Translations under genes and position numbers: made by a program | Source: Ignavibacteriaceae bacterium | GTDB lineage: Bacteria; Bacteroidota; Ignavibacteria; Ignavibacteriales; Ignavibacteriaceae | Assembly: GCA_013359345.1 (NCBI GenBank) | Contig: JABWCA010000031.1 | Span: 1-35,819 of the forward strand | Direction: 5' to 3' | DNA: 35,819 nt | Shown here: piece after piece, positions 22,083 to 35,819 of the stretch | How the letters are laid out: every line of letters starts with the position of its first letter | How positions within the stretch are numbered: the first letter of the stretch is position 1 | Notes under the pieces: generated by a model | Database searches by the model: none | What the model was told of the DNA's origin: nothing | The model's input: only the letters and a program-made list of their open reading frames with translations

Positions 22083-22565
22083 TTAAAGTTTTTTGATGGA
22101 ACTTATAATCTCTTCCATTTCCCGGTAAGAGCCTTCGGTCACTTCCGGTTTCAGCTCGCAGGCCACTTTTATTATCATCTCGTCTGAGATATGAAATAAT
22201 ACTATCAGAACACCCACTCCCGCATCACTATCCTGAGGATAAGCGTCTGCCATGATAACAGTGACAGGCATACCATTTAATACGTCTTCAACCTCCTCAT
22301 AGTTATCGATTCTTGCATAGTTGAACGAGAGATCATTACCTGTGGTCATTTTAACATCTTCAAGAGTTGCGGGGAGTTCATAGACCAGCATATCAATCTG
22401 CTGATCCTGGCTTCGGGCAAATATTCCTGAGGGGTGGTCGGGGTCATAAGCCGCATCCCAGCCATCAGGGAAGGTTACACTGTACTGCTGAGAACCCATT
22501 ATCATCTCGTTCTGTGAAAATGCTGAAATTGTAAAAAGTATAAATGCAGCAAGAGTTTTGAGCAT
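22083..22565 (-). CDS. Secreted protein of unknown function, paralogue A
   Basis: A 160-residue protein with a clear signal peptide (MLKTLAAFILFTISAFS, cleavage before QN). The mature part starts MIMGSQQYSVTFPDGW and alternates strands and helices. This 'strand - FP.GW' opening is reminiscent of PsbP/DUF1795-type periplasmic proteins, but I would not assign it. It is about half identical to the gene at 23018 and shares the same ribosome site (AAAGG). It ends EMEEIISSIKKL, which shows what the paralogue's C-terminus should look like. The two are tandem, same strand, 450 bases apart: a local duplication. Confidence 0.8.
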   Translation of the reverse strand: MLKTLAAFILFTISAFSQNEMIMGSQQYSVTFPDGWDAAYDPDHPSGIFARSQDQQIDMLVYELPATLEDVKMTTGNDLSFNYARIDNYEEVEDVLNGMPVTVIMADAYPQDSDAGVGVLIVLFHISDEMIIKVACELKPEVTEGSYREMEEIISSIKKL

Positions 22566-23000: not shown

Positions 23001-23050
23001 CGATGATTAATTCCATTTCAGAATACGATGATTAATTCCATTTCAGAATA
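23001..23050. repeat. Exact 25-bp tandem duplication at the 3' end of paralogue B
   Basis: 23001-23025 and 23026-23050 are identical (each begins CGATGATTAATTCC and ends CAGAATA). Twenty-five is not a multiple of three, so the second copy shifts the frame and brings in an early TGA. Confidence 0.97.
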
Positions 23051-23488
23051 TGTCATTCCCGATACATCAGCTTTCAGTTCACAGTATATTTTTATTATCA
23101 TCTCATCCGAAACCTGGAACAGCATGACCGTTAAACCCGTGATGACATCTGAATTCGGCAGAACAACAGCTGCATTGATAATCTTAACCGGAATTCCGTT
23201 CCTGACATCATCCGAGGCCATATAGTCTTCCACACTTTCGTAATTGTCACTGATTTCAGTTCCGGTTGCCGCTAAAACCTCTTCCATAGTTGCCCTGAGT
23301 TCGTAGATTGCCATATCAATCTCTTTATTCTGGCTGAGGGCAAGTATTCCCGAAGGATGATCAGCATCATAGTTAACTTCCCAGCCTTCGGGGAAAGTGA
23401 AACTGTACTGCTGTGACCCCATTATAACTTCGTTCTGTGCGAATGCCGCGGTGGCAAGAAAGATAAAAAGTGCCAGTGTTTTTAACAT
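23018..23488 (-). CDS. Secreted protein of unknown function, paralogue B, C-terminus frameshifted
   Basis: The current frame gives 156 residues: signal peptide MLKTLALFIFLATAAFA, then QNEVIMGSQQYSFTFPEGW, collinear with paralogue A. It ends SEMELIIVF and stops. Removing one copy of the 25-base tandem duplication at 23001-23050 restores SEMELIIDSLKKL followed by TAG at 22983-22981, matching the ...IISSIKKL end of paralogue A. The duplication is therefore the mutation, and it replaces the last six residues by two. The rest of the protein is intact, so it may still fold. AAAGG lies 8 bases upstream of the ATG. Confidence 0.82.
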   Translation of the reverse strand: MLKTLALFIFLATAAFAQNEVIMGSQQYSFTFPEGWEVNYDADHPSGILALSQNKEIDMAIYELRATMEEVLAATGTEISDNYESVEDYMASDDVRNGIPVKIINAAVVLPNSDVITGLTVMLFQVSDEMIIKIYCELKADVSGMTYSEMELIIVF

Positions 23489-25269: not shown

Positions 25270-25342
25270 AACAGATTTTATTATATTAGGGTATGGCTAT
25301 TTCAGCACAATTTTGGAACTACTAATCAAAGATCAATTATTA

Positions 25343-25921
25343 ATGACCAATAGTAAAGCCCTCTACGCAGATTTTGAACGGGAAGCCGTGCCACACATGG
25401 ACGCGCTCTTCAACTTTGCCCTGAGGATGACGGGCGACTCGGATGAGGCGAACGATTTAGTACAAGACACCTACCTGCGCGCATTCAGATTTTTCGACAA
25501 ATTTGAAAAGGGAACAAACTGTAAAGCATGGTTGTTTCGTATAATGAAGAATACGTACATAAACACTTACAGAAAAAGAACAAAGGAACCCGAGAAAGTT
25601 GACTATGAAGAGGTAGAGAATTTCTACGAGAATATCAAACCCTCTTCAACCGATGATGCACATCTTGATAAGGAAATATTTGATAACCTGCTTGATGATC
25701 AGGTTTCAAACGCAATTTCCGCTCTCCCTGAAGATTTCAGAACAGTTGTGATTCTGGCAGATATTGAAGGCTTCACTTACGATGAGATTGCAGACTTTAT
25801 TGACTGTCCCGTTGGCACGGTGAGGTCAAGATTGCACCGGGCAAGAAAAATGCTTTTTGCACAGTTATATGAGTATGCCGGGTCAAAAGGTTATAAGATA
25901 AGCACAGATGAAGAAGAATAA
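25343..25921 (+). CDS. ECF-type RNA polymerase sigma factor
   Basis: A 192-residue sigma-70-family factor that redirects RNA polymerase to a specific regulon. Region 2 reads LFNFALRMTGDSDEANDLVQDTYLRAF (in parts) with the GTNCKAWLFRIMKN end. Region 4 has ALPEDFRTVVILADIEGFTYDEIAD and the recognition helix VGTVRSRLHRARK. ATG at 25343 is preferred over an in-frame TTG ten codons earlier because relatives begin MTNSKALYADFE. The anti-sigma gene follows after 11 bases, the usual arrangement for stress-responsive ECF factors. Confidence 0.93.
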   Translation: MTNSKALYADFEREAVPHMDALFNFALRMTGDSDEANDLVQDTYLRAFRFFDKFEKGTNCKAWLFRIMKNTYINTYRKRTKEPEKVDYEEVENFYENIKPSSTDDAHLDKEIFDNLLDDQVSNAISALPEDFRTVVILADIEGFTYDEIADFIDCPVGTVRSRLHRARKMLFAQLYEYAGSKGYKISTDEEE

Positions 25922-29247: not shown

Positions 29248-29336
29248 AATATACCAAACTTTGAAAAATGGATAAAAACTTTATATTGGGTCTGCAACTA
29301 ACAATTTTTCCCAAATACTGATGACAGGACTGACGT

Positions 29337-30581
29337 ATTAAAACACTAAAAGTTCTTCTGGTTGTACTGCTCCTGCCCCTGGCCTTATCAGCCCAAAAAG
29401 AAATTGCAGATGCAAAAATAAAAAAAATACTCGAAAAGGTACCCAAAGGAACAGATTATACCATACTGATTTTTGATCCTCTTGTTAATGATACCTTTTT
29501 TAACTACAACACGCATAAACCTCTGATACCCGCCTCAAATAATAAGCTGTTCAGTTCGGCTGCGGCTCTCTATATCCTCGGGCCCGATTTCAGGGTATAC
29601 ACCAGGATATTTTCGGATGATAAAAACTTTAATGACGGGGTGATTAACGGAAATATCTACCTTAAGGGGTATGGTGATGCATCATTCAAATCGGAAGATC
29701 TTGATGAAATGATTCAGGATCTGAAAGCATCGGGAATTAAAGAGGTGACCGGAAACGTCTGCGGAGATGACACTTATTTCGATAAAGAATATTACCGCCA
29801 TGAATGGATGGAAAATGTCGAGTATGAGGGTGAACTGCCTCTTATTTCGGCTCTGGTTCTTGATTATAACAGAATAAAAACAGAAGTTACCTGGCGCGGC
29901 AGAAAGAGCTACAGGGAAGAAAAGATACTCAACCCGCCGCTTCAGATAGCAGAGATTTTTTATAAAAAACTCATAGCGGCAGGAATTGAGGTAAAGGGAA
30001 AGGCTGCAGAAGGGGCCATACCGGCAGGATCCGTTCTCCTTTCCGAATTCTACTCCCCCATTATGGAATTGCTCAGAAGAGTTAATAAAAACAGCGATAA
30101 TTTTTATGCCGAAACGGTTTTTAAGATTCTCGGAGCAGTTTCAACAGGTCAGCAGGGAACCGCTATCAACTCATATCAGGCTCTTTACAGCTGCCTGAAG
30201 GGTCTGGGCATCAATATGAAAGGAAGCTCCATTGTTGACGGATCCGGACTTTCAAAAAGCAATTATGTCACCGCCGAAACCCTGGGTGATCTTCTTAAAG
30301 CAGTCTATCTTGATCTCGATATTTATGAATGGTACTATAAAACCCTGACTATTGCCGGGGTTGACGGAACACTGGGCAAAAGAATGAAAGGTACTGCGGG
30401 AGAGAATAACTTCAGGGGCAAAACAGGAACACTGAACGGAGTTTCATCACTTTCAGGTTATATGCAGTCTAAAAGAGGTTCTGACCTGATTCTTGTAATG
30501 ATATTTAATTACAGCACTTACAACTGGACTTATTACAGGAAGTTAAAAGATGAGATTGTGGATGCGGCAGCAGATTATTAA
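29337..30581 (+). CDS. dacB: PBP4-type D-alanyl-D-alanine carboxypeptidase/endopeptidase (S13), apparent ATT start
   Basis: A periplasmic cell-wall enzyme that trims or cleaves peptidoglycan cross-links. With a start at ATT 29337 the protein has 414 residues, beginning with a perfect signal peptide (KTLKVLLVVLLLPLALSA-QK). The active-site triad motifs are intact: Ser67-x-x-Lys70 (PASNNKL), Ser243-Asp-Asn245 (NKNSDNFYAE), Lys352-Thr-Gly (RGKTGTLNG). No ATG, GTG or TTG exists in frame between the upstream TGA (29331) and the signal peptide; the first, a GTG at 29640, would delete the catalytic Ser. AGGA lies seven bases before the ATT, which supports initiation there. An out-of-frame ATG (29321) hits TAA after six codons, so a one-base error in that stretch is the alternative. 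Confidence 0.87.
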   Translation: MKTLKVLLVVLLLPLALSAQKEIADAKIKKILEKVPKGTDYTILIFDPLVNDTFFNYNTHKPLIPASNNKLFSSAAALYILGPDFRVYTRIFSDDKNFNDGVINGNIYLKGYGDASFKSEDLDEMIQDLKASGIKEVTGNVCGDDTYFDKEYYRHEWMENVEYEGELPLISALVLDYNRIKTEVTWRGRKSYREEKILNPPLQIAEIFYKKLIAAGIEVKGKAAEGAIPAGSVLLSEFYSPIMELLRRVNKNSDNFYAETVFKILGAVSTGQQGTAINSYQALYSCLKGLGINMKGSSIVDGSGLSKSNYVTAETLGDLLKAVYLDLDIYEWYYKTLTIAGVDGTLGKRMKGTAGENNFRGKTGTLNGVSSLSGYMQSKRGSDLILVMIFNYSTYNWTYYRKLKDEIVDAAADY

Positions 30582-31218: not shown

Positions 31219-33204
31219 ATGAAATCTCTGATCAGGATATTGCTGATATTTTCGGCAATTCTTTATACAACCGGTTTTGTTGCTCAGGATCAGCCCTCTG
31301 CAAAAAGGAGCCTGATAATTGCAATCGGGAACTACCCCTACCTGGGTTTCCTTAACTCAGCAAATGACGTGCCTCTCATTAAAACAGCGCTTGAATCACA
31401 GGGGTTCACTGATTTCAGAATCCTTACAGACAGTTCTGCCACCCTCTCAAATATACTTGCCCGGTTGGATGAACTTGCTGCTGATACCCGCCGGGGTGAT
31501 ATTGCAGTTATCCATTTTTCGGGACACGGACAATCGATCCCCGATGACAACGGCGATGAGCCCGATGGCGTTGATGAGAGTTTCTGCGCATACGGGGCAA
31601 AACCATGGGTCACAGATGATTATCATGGTGAGGAACACCTTCGCGATGATGTTTTTGGCAGATATATAGACAAAATCAGAGAAGCAGCCGGGCCTGAGGG
31701 GCAGGTTCTCGTGATACTTGATGCTTGTTACTCCGGCTCCGGTACAAGGGCAACAGATATTATCACGAGAGGGGTCGATAATGTCCTCACTGAAAGGAAT
31801 TCCCCGAAAGATTTCACAATAAAAGATGAGACCGCATTATACCCCGCGGGAGTTACTCTGAATGAATCGGGTTTTGCTCCGTTGATTGTGTTTTCGGGTG
31901 CGCGGGCAAATGAAAAAAATGCCGAATACAAAGGGGCCGGCTCTCTTTCTTATGCGTTCAATAAAGCTCTTACAAATCCACGGGGGAGTGACATTTCATA
32001 CAGAGGGCTGTTTGCCGAAATCAATTCTGTAATGACAGGCATTGCACCTGCACAGAATCCCGTTGCTGAGGGGAACGGACTCGATCTGAAAATTTTCGGG
32101 CAGGGATACATTGAACCGCCCGCCTCTTACCCCGTTACAGATATCATAAATGACACTCTTATAATAGGTGCGGGCACAATAGCAGGCATTCACCCCGGGG
32201 CAAGGGCAGTATTCTATCCCGCCGGAACCACCGACACTTCAAAAACAGCACCGCTGTTCACCGGAGAAGTTGTCTTTTCGCATCCCCTTTTTGCAAAAGT
32301 GAAACCTGATTTCAAACCTGCAAACTTCGGGGGAGCTGCCTATACTGCCTGTATCACTGAGGCGGTTGTTGCGCTTGATACTGTCAGGATCTGGTACGGA
32401 GGAGCATCTGGCAATAGTGATACCGAAACATTAAAAAAGGCACTTGGTACAAGCAGCCTCATCCGATTCGTCAAAGAAAATGAATGGCATGATCTTGCCG
32501 TTACAAAATCAGCCGGAGCTAATCTTTACACCCTTACGGAAATAAGCAGCGGAACAGTCCTTGCTGATTCCCTAAGGATTGGTGATGAACTCACAACCAG
32601 GATAAGGCAATACCTGATCTCCCGACAGTTTGCCATGCTTGATCTTAAAAATGAGAGAATCGCACTGGAAATTGAGCTTATACCCGTTACTTATGACAGC
32701 AAAACAGGAAAGACTGAGGAAATAGCCGATATAAACAAATACTACGTTAACGGAGTGTTCACGGCGGGCAAATCTGACTTCTTCAAAATTAAAATCAGAA
32801 ACACCGGCAAAATCAGGGCTTATTTTAACATCATGAGCATTGAGGAAAACGGCAAGATAGATCTGCTTATTCCGTATGTCAGGAAGAATGAAGATCCTTC
32901 CGGCTATTTCATAAAGCCGGGAGATGAATTTATCATCCCTAATTTCCTTTACAGATTCCGGAATAAATCAGGCAAACCTGTTGCAAATGAGATACTGAAG
33001 GTTATCGCATCTGCAGAACCAATTGACCTCAGATACGCTCTGCTGAAAAGGCGCGGAGATGACCCGGGAGAAAAGAAGGGGCAGAGTTCTGTGCTTGAGG
33101 AGATATTCGGTCTGGCTGATGATTCACAAAGGAGCGGTCCCCTTAAGGCACTCAGGAATGAAATGATTTCAACATACACATTTACAATAAGAAAAGTGAA
33201 ATGA
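31219..33204 (+). CDS. Secreted caspase-like (C14) peptidase with DUF4384-like C-terminus
   Basis: A 661-residue exported cysteine peptidase. After a signal peptide (1-23, ending VAQ), a caspase-fold domain spans about 28-290: first strand RSLIIAIGNYP, catalytic His103 in HFSGHGQ and catalytic Cys170 in ILDACYSGSG. Both dyad residues are intact, so it should be active, with Arg/Lys or Asp specificity unknown. A beta-rich middle of no clear family follows. Residues about 505-625 (FKIKIRNTGKIRAYFNIMSI, IDLLIPYVRKNEDPSG, IKPGDEFIIP) fit the DUF4384 pattern often seen behind bacterial caspase domains. Its stop overlaps the next gene's start (ATGA), so the two are translationally coupled. Confidence 0.88.
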   Translation: MKSLIRILLIFSAILYTTGFVAQDQPSAKRSLIIAIGNYPYLGFLNSANDVPLIKTALESQGFTDFRILTDSSATLSNILARLDELAADTRRGDIAVIHFSGHGQSIPDDNGDEPDGVDESFCAYGAKPWVTDDYHGEEHLRDDVFGRYIDKIREAAGPEGQVLVILDACYSGSGTRATDIITRGVDNVLTERNSPKDFTIKDETALYPAGVTLNESGFAPLIVFSGARANEKNAEYKGAGSLSYAFNKALTNPRGSDISYRGLFAEINSVMTGIAPAQNPVAEGNGLDLKIFGQGYIEPPASYPVTDIINDTLIIGAGTIAGIHPGARAVFYPAGTTDTSKTAPLFTGEVVFSHPLFAKVKPDFKPANFGGAAYTACITEAVVALDTVRIWYGGASGNSDTETLKKALGTSSLIRFVKENEWHDLAVTKSAGANLYTLTEISSGTVLADSLRIGDELTTRIRQYLISRQFAMLDLKNERIALEIELIPVTYDSKTGKTEEIADINKYYVNGVFTAGKSDFFKIKIRNTGKIRAYFNIMSIEENGKIDLLIPYVRKNEDPSGYFIKPGDEFIIPNFLYRFRNKSGKPVANEILKVIASAEPIDLRYALLKRRGDDPGEKKGQSSVLEEIFGLADDSQRSGPLKALRNEMISTYTFTIRKVK

Positions 33205-35819
33205 GACCGGCATTATTTTGCGCCGTATTTCTGACCTTGATCACCTGCATCATTAATGCACAGGATGCAGAGGGCTATGCACAAAAAGCACTTGAATCCA
33301 TACAGGCGGGGGATCTGAATAAAACCGTTTTATATGCAGAAAAATCTGCAGCGCTTTTTGAATCGGAGGGATGGTTTCCTGAAGATTATTTTGCAGTGCT
33401 ATTTATCGGGGGGAAAGCGTATAACGGACTTGGCAGGCCTGACGAAGCCAGAAAGCTGCTGGAACGGGGCTCAAACAGGATTCAGACTGAACCCTCACTC
33501 ATCTTCGGACTTCTGATCAATGAACTGGGGCTTGCTTATAAAACGCTCGGTGATCTCGGGACAGCAGTCTCCCTCTTCAGGCGCGGTCTCGGTATTTTCG
33601 GAAAGACAGGGGACGAGGGCAAAAGATTTGCAGGAATCACGACTTACAATATCGCGTTATGCGAAATGTCGGCCGGTAATTACAGTGAAGGACTTTCCAG
33701 CCTTAAGAAAGCTGAACAGGCAATATCTGAAACCGGCGGCAATGAAGATCCCATGTATCCTCTTATATTTAATCTTTACGGTCTGTATCACTATTACACG
33801 GGTAACTTCACCGAAGCGGAATCATATTATAACCGCGCTCTCTCGCTTCATAAAAAGATCTCCGGTACTGACACTTATGAATATGCCACAACCCTTAACA
33901 ACCTTGCACAGCTTTATCTGCAGCAAAGCAAATATGCCGAAGCGGAAATTTACACTAAAAATGCACTGCGCATATACACGAAAACCATCGGGGTTAAACA
34001 TCCCGATTACATCATATCGGTTAATAATCTCGGCCTGATATACCGGTACCTCGAAAGGTTTGCCGGGGCCGAAAGCCTTTATCAGTTTTCAGCCGACCTG
34101 AACAAAGAGCTGTTCGGTGATAAAAGTCCGCAGTATGCATTGAGCCTCAATAATCTTGCTGACCTTTATCTTTATCTGGGTGACTACAAACTGGCCGAAT
34201 CGTATTTCACAACAGCAGTAAATATTTATGCTGATATGTACGGCACCGAAAATCCCGATTATCTGCGCGGGTTGAGCAATCTGGGGCTTCTCTATAACGC
34301 CAAAGGTGATTACACGAAGGCTGAAGCACTCTTCAGAAAAGTCATTGAGGTACGAGAGAAAATCCTGGGGCTCACTCACCCGGATTATGCCACATCGCTC
34401 AACAATCTGGGAATGTGCCTATTTAATCTGGGGCGCTACCGTGAGGCAGAAGATCTGCTGAACAGATCACTTGCAGTCTATAAAATGAATTTCGGTGAGT
34501 ATCACACAAATTATGCGATGGCTCTTGGTAACCTTGCCCAGCTCTACAGCACCTCAGGGAATTATAAAGCAGCAGAAGAACTTCTCCTTAAGTCTCTGGA
34601 AATCAGAGAAAAAATTCACGGTAAACATCACAGCAATTATGCCCTCGGGCTCATAAGCCTCGGGCAGCTTTATTACCTGACGGGTGATTACGCAAAATCT
34701 GAATTTTACTATCAGTCAGCACTTGATCTTACTGAAGCAATCACCGGAAAAAACCACGTTTCTTATGCGGCAAACCTTGCAAGCATGGCTAAACTATGGT
34801 TTGCACTCGGCAATTTCAAAAAAGCCTTTGAATTCATGGATGTGGCAATTGAGATTTACAAAAGGCTGAATGCGGTGAAGCAGCTTGATTACGCTATGAC
34901 TCTTAACAGCTTCGGGGAAATGCTGGTGCAGGCCGCTTACTTTGATGACGCGGAGAAATATTTCTCCGAGGCCCTGCAGCTCGTGAAAGAATCGGTGGGC
35001 ACAAAACATAATTTTTATGCAACCTGTCTGAACGGACTCGGACTCACATACAGTTTTTCGGGCCGGCCTGAAAAGGCACAAAAGTATTATGCTGAGGCGC
35101 TTGAGATTATTAAGGAACAATTCGGCACACAGAATCATAATTATCTCCTTCTGAACAACAACCTCTCTCTTACATACTCGCTTCTTCATGACTATGACAA
35201 CGCATTGAAGTATATAAAAGAAGCTTATGAAACCGGTAAAGAGGTTCTGGGAGAAAATCATCCTGATGTTATTTTATCGATGATTAACATGGCAGATATA
35301 ATGATGGCAAAGGGTGATAACGAGGATGCCGAAAAGGTGGTGACTGATATGTTCACCATAAAACAGAATATGGCAAGAAAGCTGCTGCCCGCGCTGAGCG
35401 AATCTGAAAAGGCTGACTTCCTTACCAAGGATGACTACATTTATGATATGGCATTTTCATTCAGTTCTGCCTCAGACCCGGTAAGCTACAAAGATATTTA
35501 TGAGAAGGCTCTCTTCAGAAAAGGTCTGCTCCTGAACTCCTCAACGGGTACACGGGCATTCATAACAAGATCAGGGGATGAAAACCTTAAAAAGAAATAT
35601 TCGGAATGGCTCAGCGTAAAACAGCTCCTTTCAGGCCTGTATAATCTTACCGCCGTACAGAGATCAACTTCAGGATATGACACTGATTCACTTGAACAAC
35701 TCGCAAACACACTTGAAAAGGAGATATCCGGACTTTCAGCATCCTTCCGTGATTTTGTCCTCGTTCCCGATGTTAAATGGACTGAATTGAGGGATAATCT
35801 CAGAGAAGGTGATATCCTG
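33201..35819 (+). CDS. Secreted kinesin-light-chain-type TPR protein, probable CHAT peptidase (3' end cut by window edge)
   Basis: An open frame of 873 codons to the window edge. The start ATG overlaps the caspase gene's stop. A signal peptide (RPALFCAVFLTLITCIINA-QD) is followed by at least a dozen TPR units of the 42-residue kinesin-light-chain type, with recurring HPDYATSLNNLG and GDYTKAEALF patterns (about residues 95-700). From about 765 the sequence (YEKALFRKGLLLNSSTGTRAFI, then WTELRDNLREGDIL) is the region that normally precedes a CHAT domain in TPR-CHAT proteases. The CHAT catalytic His and Cys would lie beyond the window, so that assignment is a prediction. Confidence 0.85.
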   Translation, partial: MRPALFCAVFLTLITCIINAQDAEGYAQKALESIQAGDLNKTVLYAEKSAALFESEGWFPEDYFAVLFIGGKAYNGLGRPDEARKLLERGSNRIQTEPSLIFGLLINELGLAYKTLGDLGTAVSLFRRGLGIFGKTGDEGKRFAGITTYNIALCEMSAGNYSEGLSSLKKAEQAISETGGNEDPMYPLIFNLYGLYHYYTGNFTEAESYYNRALSLHKKISGTDTYEYATTLNNLAQLYLQQSKYAEAEIYTKNALRIYTKTIGVKHPDYIISVNNLGLIYRYLERFAGAESLYQFSADLNKELFGDKSPQYALSLNNLADLYLYLGDYKLAESYFTTAVNIYADMYGTENPDYLRGLSNLGLLYNAKGDYTKAEALFRKVIEVREKILGLTHPDYATSLNNLGMCLFNLGRYREAEDLLNRSLAVYKMNFGEYHTNYAMALGNLAQLYSTSGNYKAAEELLLKSLEIREKIHGKHHSNYALGLISLGQLYYLTGDYAKSEFYYQSALDLTEAITGKNHVSYAANLASMAKLWFALGNFKKAFEFMDVAIEIYKRLNAVKQLDYAMTLNSFGEMLVQAAYFDDAEKYFSEALQLVKESVGTKHNFYATCLNGLGLTYSFSGRPEKAQKYYAEALEIIKEQFGTQNHNYLLLNNNLSLTYSLLHDYDNALKYIKEAYETGKEVLGENHPDVILSMINMADIMMAKGDNEDAEKVVTDMFTIKQNMARKLLPALSESEKADFLTKDDYIYDMAFSFSSASDPVSYKDIYEKALFRKGLLLNSSTGTRAFITRSGDENLKKKYSEWLSVKQLLSGLYNLTAVQRSTSGYDTDSLEQLANTLEKEISGLSASFRDFVLVPDVKWTELRDNLREGDIL

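Follow-up and report, generated by a model that had tools for sequence, protein, structure and literature searches.

Most discussion of bacterial caspases and CHAT proteases treats them as cytoplasmic enzymes of cell death or defence. The last two genes of the window, i.e., the whole 35,819-nucleotide stretch of Ignavibacteriaceae DNA considered here, raise the question of whether such peptidases may also form a team outside the cytoplasm, and which role it would have. The window corresponds to the entire contig C128 of a host genome of 4.26 Mb, assembled in 454 contigs; the features that bear on the question are collected in Table 1.

Table 1. Features of the caspase and TPR genes at the 3′-end of the window
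Feature	Position	Strand	Basis or remark
Putatively exported metacaspase-type peptidase, 661 aa	31219..33204	+	Pfam C14 and DUF4384; AF2 model; 24-member family
Caspase N-terminus, signal-peptide-like, MKSLIRILLIFSAILYTTGFVA	31219..31284	+	Hydrophobicity heuristic; helix 2-23 in model
C14 caspase domain, aa 30-284	31306..32070	+	Pfam
Asp50, equivalent of the TbMCA2 S1-pocket Asp95	31366..31368	+	Invariant; aligns with the metacaspase C-x-N-D motif
Catalytic His103 (HFSGHG)	31525..31527	+	Invariant in family alignment
Asp168, equivalent of the TbMCA2 S1-pocket Asp211, two residues N-terminal of the catalytic Cys	31720..31722	+	
Catalytic Cys170 (DACYSG)	31726..31728	+	Invariant in family alignment
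DUF4384 of the caspase, aa 523-601	32785..33021	+	Pfam
Putatively exported TPR protein, 873 aa up to the contig end, where the frame is open; probable first portion of a TPR-CHAT gene	33201..35819	+	
ATGA stop/start overlap, caspase gene to TPR gene	33201..33204	+	
TPR protein N-terminus, signal-peptide-like, MRPALFCAVFLTLITCIINA	33201..33260	+	Hydrophobicity heuristic
Final residues ahead of CHAT, KWTELRDNLREGDIL	35775..35819	+	Alignment with G067

The two open reading frames lie on the same strand, as the last genes of the contig, and share the 4-nt overlap reported by the first-pass annotation, an operon-like spacing that suggests a single transcription unit. The upstream neighbour, a secG-like gene, is read in the opposite direction 295 bp from the pair, which can therefore have its own promoter. 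The overlap is not a fixed property of the system: in the two orthologous loci described below, the partner's likely start lies about 33 nt past the caspase stop, and the 4-nt overlap was found only in the window and in L100, where the gene order is reversed. The nearest ECF sigma factor gene of the window (25313-25921) is about 5 kb off, with unrelated genes between. Elsewhere in the window, two small exported proteins (22083-22565 and 23018-23488) have near-identical N-termini (NE.IMGSQQYS.TFP) and are likely products of a local duplication, and the frame of an S13 D-Ala-D-Ala carboxypeptidase (29290-30581) remains open upstream of its listed GTG, the extension containing a signal-peptide-like stretch without a usual start codon.

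The caspase is composed of a signal peptide-like segment, a C14 domain with p20 and p10 parts, a beta-rich middle region and DUF4384 at the C-terminus. Pfam recognised Peptidase_C14 with an E value of 1.4e-12 and DUF4384 with an E value of 8.7e-6, the latter at 26.2 bits, slightly below the 27-bit cut-off; DUF4384 is present in 21 of the 24 family members, and its association with orthocaspases has already been reported (PMC6426788). The AF2 model (pLDDT 78.9) displays a metacaspase fold, for which Foldseek gave GSU0716 as top PDB match (3bij, E 2e-12), followed by AtMC9, AtMC4 and the Candida and yeast metacaspases. Model and Foldseek matches comprise both the p20 and p10 parts of the caspase-haemoglobinase fold, and the profile alignment also takes in the p10 region of AtMC4 and Yca1. 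The His103/Cys170 dyad, which had been described as intact, is located at exactly these positions and is unchanged in all 24 aligned family members, as are Asp50, Ser101 and Asp168. The last three correspond to Asp95, Ser156 and Asp211, which TbMCA2 uses in its S1 pocket (PMC4357240), while the site of TbMCA2 Cys92 is occupied by Ser47. Arg or Lys at P1 is the cleavage preference of metacaspases and paracaspases (PMC4357240), and cleavage after these residues is also predicted for the window caspase. Arg177 and Arg184 are likewise unchanged in the 24 homologs; the former lies within a low-confidence loop of the model that follows Cys170, the latter C-terminal of it, and this region may represent a processing site.

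Both window proteins begin with N-termini resembling Sec signal peptides, in agreement with the first-pass annotation, and their export is well supported by the simple hydrophobicity rule, rather than a trained predictor, on which the call is based. By the same rule, signal-peptide-like N-termini were found in 66 of 71 proteases of the clusters described below, versus 88 of 180 other ORFs, and several of the cluster proteases devoid of one look like start-codon errors. No match to a T9SS sorting domain was obtained in the caspase with NCBIfam models.

The TPR protein contains 11 TPR_12 stretches (Pfam), with a period of 42 residues, and is 34% identical to complete TPR-CHAT proteins encoded beside the orthologous caspases of G067 and G068. 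The CHAT domain is absent from the window itself, as the contig ends first; its last residues, KWTELRDNLREGDIL, align to those directly preceding CHAT in the complete orthologs. Thus, the earlier designation as an exported TPR(-CHAT) protein holds within the window for the TPR portion, whereas its CHAT portion lies outside and comes from the orthologs and from a probable continuation on another contig. Among the seven CHAT matches in the host genome, those on C105 and C35 start at contig ends. C105:1-805 opens mid-CHAT (E 2.5e-49), and both catalytic motifs, which the first-pass annotation had proposed to look for past position 35,819, are intact (STHGYF for His and SACETG for Cys); the two residues are invariant and are found in C105 and in both orthologs. 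The C105 domain and the CHAT domain of the G067 partner share 60% identity, and the former clusters with G067, G068 and G065 in the CHAT tree (support 100/99). The window tail and C105 also rank their relatives alike (G067/G068, then G065, then C335), while C35 differs. C35 was rejected as the continuation, because its identity to the ortholog CHAT is 37% and its closest relative is C335. Between the window end and C105 about 150 residues would be missing: no bridging piece was found in the assembly, where only C335 and C35 were matched, and neither C105 nor C35 has an exact contig-end overlap with the window. C105:1-805 is therefore only the probable continuation of the TPR gene. A TPR protein on C5 was discarded as bridging piece, since it is internal to its own contig; this exported-looking protein of 673 residues (L114:2285-4306, G000:C5) is TPR-CHAT-like and ends ahead of the catalytic part, and it may be a natural relative without CHAT. 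The position of the CHAT end outside the window and the existence of C35 as a second possible continuation would leave room for a chance adjacency combined with a wrong contig assignment, the TPR gene being devoid of a CHAT end. The orthologs, however, have complete TPR-CHAT genes in the same order, C105 and C35 alike encode CHAT, and the pairing is strongly enriched across independent lineages, making such a coincidence extremely improbable.

In Foldseek searches the model of the complete G067 TPR-CHAT protein resembled separase, the Craspase protease Csx29 and DdvA; the 50 VIA-align matches listed for the TPR-CHAT model were taken up by TPR domains, with no CHAT match among them. The most likely role of the TPR superhelix is to bind a peptide or partner, with the CHAT protease being positioned or gated by these repeats. 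Csx29 of the type III-E CRISPR system has the same arrangement, a TPR array followed by a CHAT domain with His and Cys, and is recovered by both Foldseek and profile matches; unlike it, the window system is predicted to be exported, has a longer TPR array and has a caspase as neighbour. DdvA is a transmembrane anti-sigma factor whose structures (8rot, 8rw5) were deposited under the name CHAT domain-containing protein. It matches along the TPR-CHAT model, and its CHAT domain is matched weakly at the profile level (E 0.029), but the window TPR protein begins with a signal peptide-like sequence and shows no N-terminal anti-sigma part. The resemblance to Csx29 structures, and the presence of TPR-CHAT proteins and caspases in conflict and defence systems (PMC10028731, PMC7159879), could suggest an anti-phage or programmed-cell-death module similar to Craspase or to the caspase-bearing conflict systems. 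This appears highly unlikely: judging from the signal peptides called by the heuristic, the proteins would reside outside the cytoplasm, only weak generic caspase and TPR matches were obtained with PADLOC, and the NCBIfam Csx29 model scored 21.5 bits with C105 and 15.3 bits with the G067 ortholog, against a cut-off of 300.

The recurrence of the pair was analysed in 147 genomes of the order, of which 41 contain caspase genes and 63 contain CHAT genes. A full orthologous pair, in the same order and on one strand, is present in G067 and G068, two species of another genus, with a caspase 46% identical to that of the window. Its surroundings are unrelated to the window: it is flanked by an S8 subtilase and by a divergently oriented exported WD40 protein that itself carries an intact caspase dyad. 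The WD40 proteins (L047:10977-14621 and L048:10797-14441) have 1214 residues and a C-terminal caspase domain, the dyad being intact in the former; exported WD40-caspases also adjoin the caspase family in L069, L072, L085, L086, L096 and L097. In the host genome, the sole other caspase follows another exported TPR-CHAT gene at a distance of 95 bp (C15), and a further locus (L010:1832-9884, G000:C218) carries tandem exported CHAT proteins of 1851 and 826 residues. A search of GTDB genomes that was based on the caspase alignment only, and on no CHAT information, yielded 28 caspase loci, nearly all in Bacteroidota; members were added from 392 genomes of the phylum, and clustering at 60% identity left 27 independent lineages outside the host as the basis for neighbour counts. 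In six of them a CHAT gene immediately adjoins the caspase gene on the same strand: G067/G068, Larkinella knui, Paraflavisolibacter, a Cyclobacteriaceae MAG, two related Bacteroidota MAGs counted as one, and G364, where the genes overlap by 4 nt in the reverse order. CHAT was found within three genes in two additional lineages, versus none of 144 distant genes of the same loci. With a base rate set generously at six CHAT genes per 2500-gene genome, i.e., 0.5% direct adjacency per locus, the binomial probability of the direct adjacencies is about 3e-9. The conserved adjacency and the excess over other genes that had been proposed as checks are thus both observed, and the caspase-CHAT coupling is conserved well above chance. 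A continuation into CHAT very probably exists and the pair is adjacent in other genomes, so that neither of the refuting outcomes named by the first-pass annotation applies.

The association of the caspase is nevertheless broader and less strict than an invariable pairing. Links of the family to exported WD40-caspases are just as frequent, and trypsins occur beside it as well; CHAT, WD40-caspase, trypsin or an extra caspase occurs at most three genes away in 19 of 27 lineages, versus two of the 144 distant genes for any of the four classes. A recognised protease neighbour is missing in 8 of 27 lineages, in some owing to short contigs, and no caspase gene adjoins the TPR-CHAT ortholog of G065, indicating that each partner can occur without the other. 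The CHATs that accompany the caspase fall at four or more positions of the tree and were therefore repeatedly recruited; a single origin of the partnership was rejected, as the distribution of these CHATs requires six label changes, no fewer than four of which are imposed by supported branches. The protease-cluster theme extends beyond Bacteroidota, since a parallel cluster is found on an alphaproteobacterial plasmid (L117:6813-20037, NZ_CP085162.1, Pseudosulfitobacter), where a trypsin, a two-component system, a patatin and exported caspase, trypsin, TPR and CHAT proteins lie together. A caspase cluster on a Calothrix plasmid was not retained as the same system, because its proteins lack signal peptides.

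A physical or functional interaction of the caspase with the TPR-CHAT protein would be in keeping with these data, while activation of one protease by the other is speculative, linkage being the one observation that points to it. The role of the TPR protein as a scaffold or sensor and the action of the two proteases in series, both put forward by the first-pass annotation, are hypotheses. In its strict form, a two-step zymogen cascade in which one of the two, TPR-CHAT protein or caspase, activates the other by cleavage would agree with operon coupling in either gene order, and the invariant Arg177, in its low-confidence loop, and Arg184 would be plausible sites for an Arg-specific enzyme. The partners vary, however, caspase being found without CHAT and CHAT without caspase, and a second protease would be unnecessary if the caspase matures by intra-chain cleavage with calcium, as is known for metacaspases (PMC9622860). 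A dedicated cascade is improbable, and interchangeable modules fit better the varied tree positions of the CHATs and the solitary TPR-CHAT of G065.

In three other genomes (L083, L092 and L075) genes for an ECF sigma factor and for a protein with one transmembrane segment (one-TM protein) are next to or near the pair: in Paraflavisolibacter and Prevotellamassilia they belong to one run of genes with it, and in Larkinella knui they are found close by. In these loci (L083:6253-13658, L092:7974-12920 and L075:2-9977), which carry an exported caspase and TPR-CHAT, the one-TM protein is predicted to have a cytosolic N-terminus and a periplasmic, TPR or helical, C-terminus. Csx29, itself a TPR-CHAT protease, cleaves a sigma-factor inhibitor (PMC10028731), which makes protease-controlled sigma release plausible in the sigma-bearing relatives; in some of them, an ECF sigma factor held by the one-TM protein would probably be the output.

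The sigma linkage favours regulated envelope proteolysis, and also bears on a simpler possibility: scavenging or processing proteases that share a promoter and act independently on exogenous or envelope protein, with no regulatory unit. As a rule, metacaspases and CHAT enzymes are peptidases that act specifically and under regulation, and large TPR, WD40 and ankyrin repeats, together with the ECF sigma linkage, suit regulation rather than digestion; conversely, unrelated exported proteases adjoin the caspase elsewhere (trypsins, and the S8 subtilase of G067/G068) and the partners are interchangeable. On balance, independent scavenging is rather unlikely. We consider it probable, although far from certain, that the window encodes in one operon two exported clan CD cysteine peptidases sharing an envelope compartment and devoted to regulated proteolysis. 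The pair would be one of several forms taken by a modular extracytoplasmic protease cluster in Bacteroidota, in which the repeat protein would recognise a signal or a substrate and both peptidases would then cut envelope or external targets. As a more tentative and less likely extension, exported metacaspases, TPR- or ankyrin-CHAT proteins, WD40-caspases and trypsins of Bacteroidota and related bacteria could be interchangeable modules of a so far undescribed network, perceiving envelope events by means of repeat superhelices and acting by sequential cleavage, with sigma release in some genomes.

The individual parts of the system are known. Bacterial orthocaspases and metacaspases (MEROPS C14B; GSU0716, Yca1, AtMC4/9 and TbMCA2) share with the window caspase the p20 and p10 parts, the His/Cys dyad, the acidic S1 residues and the metacaspase fold; unlike them, the window caspase has a signal peptide-like N-terminus and a beta-rich C-terminal region with DUF4384, and its family lies in operons with TPR-CHAT or WD40-caspase genes. 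A survey by Asplund-Samuelsson et al. (2012) described multi-metacaspase operons in Bacteroidetes and Alphaproteobacteria, some with proteolysis domains and possible signal peptides, WD40 and TPR being the commonest extra domains (PMC3501461), but CHAT is never mentioned there and no exported caspase/TPR-CHAT pair is described. In the open-licence papers searched, no description of such operons was found, in line with the initial impression of novelty, and the combination of caspase and TPR-CHAT seems to be undescribed.

The recurrent exported operon points to the cell envelope as a second setting for clan CD peptidases, and its occurrence in distant bacteria suggests a little-studied protease team working there and not inside the cell. 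A network of interchangeable modules, if it exists, would amount to caspase signalling transposed to the envelope side. The pair itself provides a small, concrete and testable system for asking which role exported bacterial caspases have.
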